Origin: Oceanihabitans sp. 2_MG-2023
Lineage (GTDB): Bacteria > Bacteroidota > Bacteroidia > Flavobacteriales > Flavobacteriaceae
Length of the DNA stretch: 64,000 bases
Reading direction: 5' to 3'
Assembly (NCBI RefSeq): GCF_030547245.1
Contig: NZ_JAUOQT010000003.1
Location: 434,001 to 498,000 of the forward strand
Shown here piece by piece: positions 49,073 to 50,535 of the stretch. Each line of letters starts with the position of its first letter. The first letter of the stretch is position 1. The notes under the pieces were generated by a model. That model did no database searches. It saw only the letters and a list, made by a program, of their open reading frames with translations, and was not told the origin of the DNA. Position numbers and translations under genes: made by a program.

Positions 49073-49184
49073 CATTATTCCCAAATAAAAAAATATGTTT
49101 GATTATTCCATAAAAAAGGAATATATTTGATTATCACTCAATAAAGCGATAATTTTAATTATCACATAATAAGATGATAAATCA
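49073..49184 (+). repeat. Four 28-bp tandem repeats with palindromic cores: operator array
   Basis: Four 28-bp units start at 49073, 49101, 49129 and 49157, each beginning with ATTAT after one variable base. Units 2-4 hold palindromes TATTCC/GGAATA (49104-49123), TTATC/GATAA (49131-49152) and TTATCA/TGATAA (49159-49180), with centres at 113.5, 141.5 and 169.5 past 49000. Unit 1 keeps only the left half. The array covers the promoter of the next gene and ends at its first ATG. Confidence 0.8.
49099..49129 (+). promoter_or_regulatory. Promoter of satD inside the operator array
   Basis: TTG (49099-49101), a 20-bp spacer and TATATTTG (49122-49129): a full housekeeping match. The first full palindrome (49104-49123) fills the spacer, an ideal repressor site. 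A second -7-like box, TATGTTTG, lies exactly 28 bp upstream. Confidence 0.85.
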
Positions 49185-49219
49185 TGTTATCTCTTAAAAG
49201 AGAACAAAAATCAAAACAA

Positions 49220-49834
49220 ATGACAAGTATACTTACAGGGGATATTATCAAATCCCGCGGACAAAAAAATCCAGAGATTTGGCTTAGTCAATTAAAAGAG
49301 AGTCTATCGTATTTAGAACCAAACAATAAACACTGGGAAATTTATCGTGGAGACAGTTTTCAAATAGAAATTAAAGATGCTTTTAAAAGTTTTGAAGCTG
49401 CTATTTATATAAAAGCAGCAATTAAAATGATAAAAGGATTAGACGTTAGATTGGCTATTGGCATTGGCGAAAAAACATATCAAGGTAACGATGTAACAGA
49501 ATCTAATGGCGAAGCCTTTATTTTTTCTGGGGAAACTTTTGAGACTTTAAAAAAGGAAAAACAAAATTTAAAAATTAAAACAAAATCGGAAATACTTAAT
49601 AAGGAGTTGAATCTATATTTTAAACTAGCACTAATTAGTATGGATCATTGGACAGTCAATTCGGCAGAAATTGTTAAATTAACTTTAGAAAACCCGAAAG
49701 CATTACAAGAAGATTTAGGAAAAACAATTGGCATTAACCAAAACGCTATTAGCACTAGGCAAAAACGTGCCAATTTGGAAGAAATTTTAGCATTAAATGG
49801 CATGTTTAAGAAAAAAATAAACAGTTTAATATGA
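49220..49834 (+). CDS. SatD-family protein with cyclase-like domain and C-terminal HTH
   Basis: A 204-residue protein. The ATG at 49220 gives the usual MTSILTGDIIKSRG start; one at 49184 would add twelve residues. The order TGDIIKSR, YRGDSFQIEI, a long helix and LDVRLAIGIGE copies the metal and nucleotide strands of class III nucleotide cyclases in a shortened form; this reading is my inference. Near the C-terminus LQEDLGKTIGINQNAISTRQKRA has the pattern of a helix-turn-helix. It overlaps the DUF3307 gene by 4 bp (ATGA). The promoter lies in four 28-bp repeats, so self-repression is likely. Confidence 0.85.
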   Translation: MTSILTGDIIKSRGQKNPEIWLSQLKESLSYLEPNNKHWEIYRGDSFQIEIKDAFKSFEAAIYIKAAIKMIKGLDVRLAIGIGEKTYQGNDVTESNGEAFIFSGETFETLKKEKQNLKIKTKSEILNKELNLYFKLALISMDHWTVNSAEIVKLTLENPKALQEDLGKTIGINQNAISTRQKRANLEEILALNGMFKKKINSLI

Positions 49835-50535
49835 TACTACTTATTAAACTTTTATTGGCTCACTTTATTGGTGATTTCTTTTTGCAACCAGAAAAATGGG
49901 TAAAAGATAAAGAAGTAAAAAAACTAAAATCTCCAAAATTATATTTGCACATATTGATACATGTGCTATTACTTTTTATACTTCTTTGGGATTTTACACT
50001 TTGGTCAATCGTACTAATTATTGGTATTTCGCACTTTATTATTGATGCAACTAAACTTAGCATTCAAAAGAAGAAAACAAAACGATTACTTTTCTTTATT
50101 GACCAAGTTCTACATATTATGGTAATATTAATTACCTATTTTGTTTATACCAATTCAAAAATAGATTTTAAAGTACTTCTTTTAGAAGAAAACCTTCTTT
50201 TAATAACCTGTTTGGCATTTTTAACGCAACCAGTTGCTATACTAATGAAAATCCTTTTTACAAAATGGGATATTTCAAAACTTACAAAAGGGAATGAATC
50301 TTTAAAAGATGCAGGAAAATATATTGGTATTTTAGAACGTATTTTAGTGTTCACCTTTATTGTAGCAGACCATTGGGAAGCTGTTGGTTTTTTAATCACA
50401 GCAAAATCTGTATTTAGATTTGGGGATCTTAAAGAGTCTAAACACCGAAAACTTACTGAGTATATATTAATTGGTACGTTAATTAGCTTTGGTATTGCTA
50501 TATTAACTGGGCTCGTTTTTAAAATAGCCTTATAA
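49831..50535 (+). CDS. DUF3307 multi-pass membrane protein
   Basis: A 234-residue inner-membrane protein with six or seven helices. Polar pairs lie in or next to the membrane segments: His11 and Asp15 (HFIGDFFLQ), His40 and His44, His68 and Asp72 (SHFIIDATK), Asp91 and His95 (DQVLHI), plus the late GILERILVF and KSVFRFGDLK segments. The spacing (HxxxD) is reminiscent of intramembrane metal enzymes. Translation is coupled to satD through an ATGA overlap. Biochemical role unknown. Confidence 0.88.
   Translation: MILLIKLLLAHFIGDFFLQPEKWVKDKEVKKLKSPKLYLHILIHVLLLFILLWDFTLWSIVLIIGISHFIIDATKLSIQKKKTKRLLFFIDQVLHIMVILITYFVYTNSKIDFKVLLLEENLLLITCLAFLTQPVAILMKILFTKWDISKLTKGNESLKDAGKYIGILERILVFTFIVADHWEAVGFLITAKSVFRFGDLKESKHRKLTEYILIGTLISFGIAILTGLVFKIAL

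Follow-up and report, generated by a model that had tools for sequence, protein, structure and literature searches.

Class III nucleotidyl cyclases carry a transition-state Asn and Arg (the VNxAxR motif) on the helix that follows the VRxxIGxG strand, and palm domains of other kinds, such as those of GGDEF proteins, GTP cyclohydrolase III and Cas10, can act without this pair. GTP cyclohydrolase III has two palm domains in one chain. In the mycobacterial class III cyclase-HTH fusions (e.g., Rv0386) a cyclase domain and an HTH are joined in one chain, and we know of no repeat array or coupled membrane partner for these fusions. For the SatD family (PF16264), one paper (PMC11323703) describes S. 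pyogenes satD as both essential and accessory, and another (PMC10326533) mentions a SatD family protein by name only. Our literature search, with subscription journals mostly outside its coverage, found no paper on the SatD fold, array or gene pair. Here we describe a SatD-like gene of Oceanihabitans sp. 2_MG-2023 in a stretch of DNA of 64,000 nucleotides (hereafter the window), and compare it, the repeats upstream of it and the membrane protein gene downstream of it with these systems.

The open reading frame occupies positions 49184-49834 of the forward strand and encodes, in order, TGDIIKSR, YRGDSF, a long helix, VRLAIGIGE and then an HTH. Translation most likely starts at the ATG at 49220, since the family alignments begin there and the repeat array covers the ATG at 49184; from this start the product would be a 204-residue SatD-family protein with a palm domain and an HTH (49220..49834, forward strand), as supported by the ORF, the alignments, the Pfam matches of relatives and a structural model. 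Residues are numbered from 49220, so that the two Asp residues of interest are D8 (TGDI) and D45 (RGDSF), which are residues 20 and 57 when counted from 49184, and VRLAIGIGE is 76-84. The earlier note had labeled the product a SatD protein. Taken literally, the label did not hold for the window protein itself, which has no match to PF16264 or to NCBIfam and none over the cut-off in Pfam; weak DUF4292 and sigma70-ECF rows were below the cut-off and were taken as chance or HTH-like. The family placement behind the label is supported, as 37 of 51 relatives match PF16264 at E <= 1 (best 1.5e-10), orthologues at loci found with the window protein (e.g., in genomes G125, G131, G160 and G001) pass the Pfam SatD cut-off, and the Asp, Ser and Gly-Asp positions are shared. 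On these sequence grounds the window protein is a diverged SatD-family member. It is of similar length to other SatD proteins, has the same Asp/Ser/GD pattern (D10, S14, G52 and D53 are the invariant residues of the typical SatD alignment) and has the same partner; it differs from typical SatD in that its branch has RGDSF for LGDEF, and SG for AR on the third palm helix.

Homologues were found in 111 of 199 genomes of the window's family, once per genome except for one genome with two match pieces, and in a sample of 296 Bacteroidota genomes PF16264 was matched over its curated cut-off in 59. Seventy of the 112 match places from the family genomes were retrieved, and another search kept 80 of its 582 confirmed loci. 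More distant members occur on plasmids of Gammaproteobacteria, Alphaproteobacteria and haloarchaea (plasmid records examined: 6 of 8 in one set and 5 of 8 in another), and protein searches of phage records with the L153 and L165 proteins as queries found no SatD. Within 4 kb on either side of SatD at 80 loci, rmuC was present at 49, a thioesterase gene at 46 and carB at 35, and none of the three at 26, so that the gene context is partly kept and partly variable. On an Enterobacter plasmid the module copy (L156:47-1828) lies near a gene for a Gabija GajB helicase (E 1.5e-232) and a DUF4365 gene, and a DUF4365 gene also neighbors the Agrobacterium copy, L257. We dropped the idea of a defense island as too thin, the GajB match beside L156 being the one strong match among the five neighbor genes scanned. 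On the Pseudomonas plasmid pPFL (L158; 10,308 bp) the pair makes up ~18% of the plasmid.

The AlphaFold2 model of the window protein, built with 44 of 84 possible sequences, had a mean pLDDT of 95.4 and a pTM of 0.92. Its first ~122 residues form a beta-alpha-beta-beta-alpha-beta palm, followed by a linker helix and four helices of the HTH region, and together with the fold searches and the profile alignment it identifies residues 1-122 (49220..49585, forward strand) as a predicted palm domain resembling those of the nucleotidyl-cyclase superfamily. A diverged class III cyclase-like fold, followed by an HTH-like end, was what the earlier note had read from the order of the motifs; the motifs and the HTH are present in the ORF and the model, and the structure prediction and fold search that it had proposed in advance returned class III cyclase and GGDEF palms. 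The top Foldseek row was the class III adenylyl cyclase Ma1120 (4wp9_A; E 6.3e-4, probability 1.0, TM 0.41/0.49), followed by GGDEF domains and GTP cyclohydrolase III. By VIA-align the top row was GTP cyclohydrolase III (2qv6_C; Z 9.6, 3.3 A, 112 aligned), with the DosC GGDEF domain (4zvh_A; Z 9.6, 2.7 A, 114 aligned), Cmr2/Cas10 (3ur3; Z 9.2, 3.6 A, 137 aligned), Rv1625c (7yzk_A; Z 8.7, 2.7 A, 119 aligned), PleD (1w25_A; Z 8.7, 3.2 A, 116 aligned) and a Y-family polymerase (6l97_B; Z 8.6, 2.4 A, 100 aligned) close behind. As these Z values are tied or nearly so, we describe the fold as a palm whose nearest subfamily is not separable by Z. No row at E <= 0.001 was obtained among the BFVD viral structures, and a sequence search of solved structures with the single SatD protein found nothing. 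The SatD profile gave non-significant rows against solved structures, the best being the unrelated EfmM60 (E 0.019), with HipB antitoxin HTHs and the Ma1120 cyclase (E 0.065, profile positions 4-89) among the others. In the genome of the window (G000) neither GGDEF domains nor class III cyclases were matched at E <= 0.001, and SatD is thus a protein of predicted cyclase fold in a genome without those families.

The codons of the two putative metal ligands lie at 49241..49243 (Asp8) and 49352..49354 (Asp45), both on the forward strand. Among 183 aligned sequences (L255 was left out), D8, S12, G44 and D45 are each conserved in 182, G97 in 181, and Q48 and R77 in 177. In a set of 179 members, from which L164 had been dropped as truncated at a contig end, 178 have both Asp residues, far more than chance would give; only L038 differs, having lost the two together. 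When the profile of the SatD N-domain was compared with that of 30 Bacteroidota class III cyclase domains (probability 78, E 1.8e-5), the Asp of ADIVGFT was matched by D8, that of TIGDAYM by D45 and the Arg of LRIGMHSG by R77, and all three motifs named in the earlier note were aligned. The same comparison with 30 GGDEF domains gave a probability of 33 (E 4.6e-4), against at most 2.7 for ten column-shuffled profiles and 2.7 for GGDEF versus class III itself; forced global alignment gave lower scores (19.5 and 12.3), with the last part not sensibly aligned. A diverse set of 23 typical SatD sequences, mostly with LGDEF, reached a probability of 68 with GGDEF domains but 7 with class III cyclases (20 shuffled controls each, at most 1.5, and at most 1.2 for GGDEF). 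Presuming that the structural alignments start without an early gap, D8 would correspond to the metal-binding Asp of Rv1625c (residue 256) and of PleD (residue 327). From the structure and profile alignments we infer that D8 and D45 lie close together, and the modeled fold and the conservation of both Asp residues point to putative nucleotide binding by SatD.

SatD thus resembles class III cyclases (PF00211; Ma1120) in its fold, motif order, two Asp positions and VRxxIGxG strand, but differs from them in lacking a conserved VNxAxR motif and a Pfam match, and in having a fused HTH and a predicted operator array. No Asn or Arg at positions 85-115 is conserved at 80% across the SatD family; an Arg at position 104 in a typical SatD branch (21 of 183) is by count one place off the class III Arg. 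We therefore do not file SatD as a cyclase and would not expect canonical class III catalysis. With GGDEF diguanylate cyclases (PF00990) it shares the palm fold and a GD[SE]F hairpin; however, SatD has no PF00990 match at E <= 10 and the first Gly of GGDEF is replaced, the hairpin being RGDSF in the window protein and RGDEF or LGDEF in relatives rather than GG[DE]EF. In GTP cyclohydrolase III (2qv6), a chain of 252 residues, the alignment covers the second half, whereas SatD has one palm and an HTH, and the Rv0386-type fusions are much larger, multidomain proteins.

Directly upstream of satD, five 28-bp units follow one another without gaps (49074..49213, forward strand; TRF period 28, units located), forming a tandem array that we predict to be the SatD operator array. 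Several of its units contain an inverted repeat, e.g., ATTCC-N8-GGAAT, so that the array is partly palindromic. Within the 200 bp that precede each of 179 SatD genes, a lag of 28 gave the best repeat for 124 genes and a lag of 29 for 36 (160 of 179 together), and five of the remaining upstream regions had a lag of 56, twice 28. In 146 of the upstream regions a lag of 28 or 29 was reached by at most one of 40 Markov shuffles. The 179-member set counts the window twice (as itself and as L001) and contains near-duplicates, and for this reason redundancy-reduced counts are also given: 97 of 114 at 70% identity and 32 of 41 at 50% identity had a best lag of 28 or 29. Among 400 control upstream regions drawn from 642 at the same loci, the best lag was 28 or 29 in 11 and significant in four, the 28-bp period of these four possibly coming from pieces of satD arrays. 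Most Flavobacteriaceae copies, and the Vibrionaceae ones, have a period of 28 bp, and many other branches one of 29 bp. It is 28 in two alphaproteobacterial plasmids (0 of 100 shuffles) and 29 in two haloarchaeal upstream regions, L254 (2 of 100 shuffles) and, weakly, L255 (35 of 100); the period search with shuffles found no array at L152, at L158 or at the haloarchaeal L258. The palindrome arms vary by lineage (TATCAC/GTGATA, TATCGG/CCGATA, TATAAGTC/GACTTATA and a GGCCGG type), and palindromy of the folded unit was clear (at most 5 of 100 column shuffles) in 95 of 146 arrays.

We found no second array in the window genome by BLAST of the array or by a palindrome pattern search. BLAST returned 42 rows, of which the self match alone was convincing (next E 0.01), and the pattern occurred 5 times forward and 3 times in reverse (one of these matches within the array); the reversed control gave 0 and 1. 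The array overlaps promoter-like boxes of the form TTTG-N17-23-TAnnTTTG, which follow a promoter consensus and which were present in 48 of 153 upstream regions of the Bacteroidota set; the spacer is 20 nt in 42 of the 48 occurrences because the 28-bp repeat imposes this spacing.

The four-helix HTH region of the model comprises residues 146-201 (49655..49822, forward strand; helices 146-157, 163-170, 174-183 and 186-201), and relatives of the window protein match Sigma70_r4 and HTH_24. From the HTH, together with the position and near-universality of the array, we infer that SatD binds DNA. We also considered a recognition-helix/operator code, for which some pairs fit by eye, and rejected it as inseparable from general relatedness in a partial Mantel test: the partial correlation of operator sequence was higher with the palm (r 0.35) than with the recognition helix (r 0.19, 0 of 999 permutations), and hence the covariation does not single out the HTH.

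The stop codon of satD and the start codon of the next gene overlap in ATGA (49831..49834, forward strand), consistent with translational coupling, and this gap of -4 is by far the commonest among 153 loci. The second gene (49831..50535, forward strand) encodes a predicted membrane protein of 234 residues with an N-terminal DUF3307 part (PF11750; E 7.9e-31, 107.2 bits against a cut-off of 23) and an unnamed C-terminal domain. The DUF3307 part (49837..50190, forward strand; PF11750, alignment) has an HxxxD/HxxxH/HxxxD/DxxxH pattern, and its sequence suggests a membrane-embedded metal site. In the alignment of the 37 partner sequences used, H11, D15, H40, H44, H68, D72, D91 and H95 are invariant. 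The gene after satD is DUF3307-like in 152 of 153 loci, and likewise in 25 of 26 loci of another set. What the partners have in common is the C-terminal membrane domain (G..ER ... AAKS..R ... EYxLxGTLxS; 50284..50514, forward strand), which is encoded next to SatD in 182 of 184 loci, including those on archaeal plasmids, and which may stand alone. Of the 182 partners, 161 also have the DUF3307 part and 21 have the C-terminal part only (E <= 0.01). Several of these 21 are full-length chains, in which the N-terminal part has diverged rather than being absent; four short partner forms have no Pfam match above the cut-off. The near-invariant residues of the C-terminal domain (n = 182) include an ER pair (E in 182, R in 180), Y (180), G (181) and S (179). 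The partner at L169, which fails the C-terminal domain test but has a DUF3307-like match in the other partner search, is probably a broken frame. At L038 (2391-3020) the SatD-like protein that lacks both Asp residues has neither a partner nor an array beside it, making this locus a natural negative control. Protein searches found no partner in phage records. The partner model is all-helical (pLDDT 88.8, pTM 0.69) and yielded no Foldseek row at E <= 0.001; its best VIA Z (6.2, 4ons_A, 4.1 A, 94 aligned) is below the noise level for helical proteins, and we therefore claim no fold for it.

The reading that we favor, and consider reasonably probable, is that of a three-part module in which SatD is a nucleotide-responsive one-component regulator that acts on its own phased operator array and controls the membrane partner. 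The palm, of the class III cyclase/GGDEF kind, would bind a metal-nucleotide through D8 and D45 and, by analogy with such domains, would pair with another copy, while the HTH would bind the 28-29-bp phased palindromes just upstream of the protein's own start, so that several SatD dimers might sit side by side on the array in a cooperative manner. The nucleotide state would alter SatD pairing and, through it, how tightly the array is held. The operon would thereby be switched, its output being the translationally coupled membrane protein. SatD would thus presumably regulate itself; repression is our guess as to the sign, and rests on the overlap of the array with the promoter-like boxes. The joint absence of the Asp pair, the partner and the array at L038 speaks for this reading, as does the description of S. 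pyogenes satD as essential (PMC11323703), since without the regulator a damaging partner would be released. Speaking against it are the covariation result, the limited number of arrays with clear palindromy (95 of 146), the members without an array and the lack of a conserved class III Asn/Arg.

The same palm fold and Asp pair are also consistent with an active enzyme, whose cyclic or linear (oligo)nucleotide product would open or activate the partner, with the HTH and array keeping expression low. Cyclase-plus-membrane-effector defense pairs work likewise, and the near-invariant pairing with a membrane protein and the plasmid and viral-contig settings, one beside a Gabija GajB gene, would fit such a system. 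However, SatD lacks the class III Asn/Arg, the partner has no recognized ligand-binding domain, no PADLOC model (including those for CBASS/Pycsar-type defense) matched SatD or the partner at E <= 0.01, and the one-per-genome occurrence in the family (111 of 199 genomes) is more like that of a housekeeping gene, so we regard an active enzyme as unlikely.

A harmful membrane protein restrained by SatD through repression or contact, in the manner of a toxin-antitoxin pair, would account for the overlapping genes, their tight co-occurrence and the retention of the pair on a 10-kb plasmid, but usual antitoxins differ from SatD in size and in its conserved palm residues, and we consider this explanation rather improbable. 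That S. pyogenes satD is described as essential yet accessory (PMC11323703) is also in its favor. The single phased array in the genome, beside genes for a DNA-binding protein and a membrane protein, and the presence of the module on plasmids could also be read as a DNA-membrane tether or partition-like system, with the array as anchoring site, SatD as nucleotide-switch adaptor and the partner as membrane anchor; against this, the module is mostly chromosomal and the array overlies promoter-like boxes, making a tether very improbable.

Under the regulatory reading the partner would be the output of the module, and the module, of which the earlier note had remarked neither the array nor the membrane partner, is more unusual than the SatD protein alone. 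Tentatively, and as a possibility that we rate as doubtful, SatD may found a kind of nucleotide-gated regulator in which palms lie side by side on a phased 28/29-bp array, make or sense a nucleotide signal and control a membrane effector with an unnamed domain, the spacing being conserved across Bacteroidota, Proteobacteria and a haloarchaeal plasmid as the operator letters drift. The favored reading would provide a family hitherto named only after streptococcal acid tolerance with an identity that can be tested, and would connect operator DNA directly with the nucleotide-cyclase/palm superfamily within a single short protein. It would also draw attention to an unusual phased operator array, of which the spacing is conserved and the sequence is not, and would mark an unnamed membrane domain as the partner of SatD.
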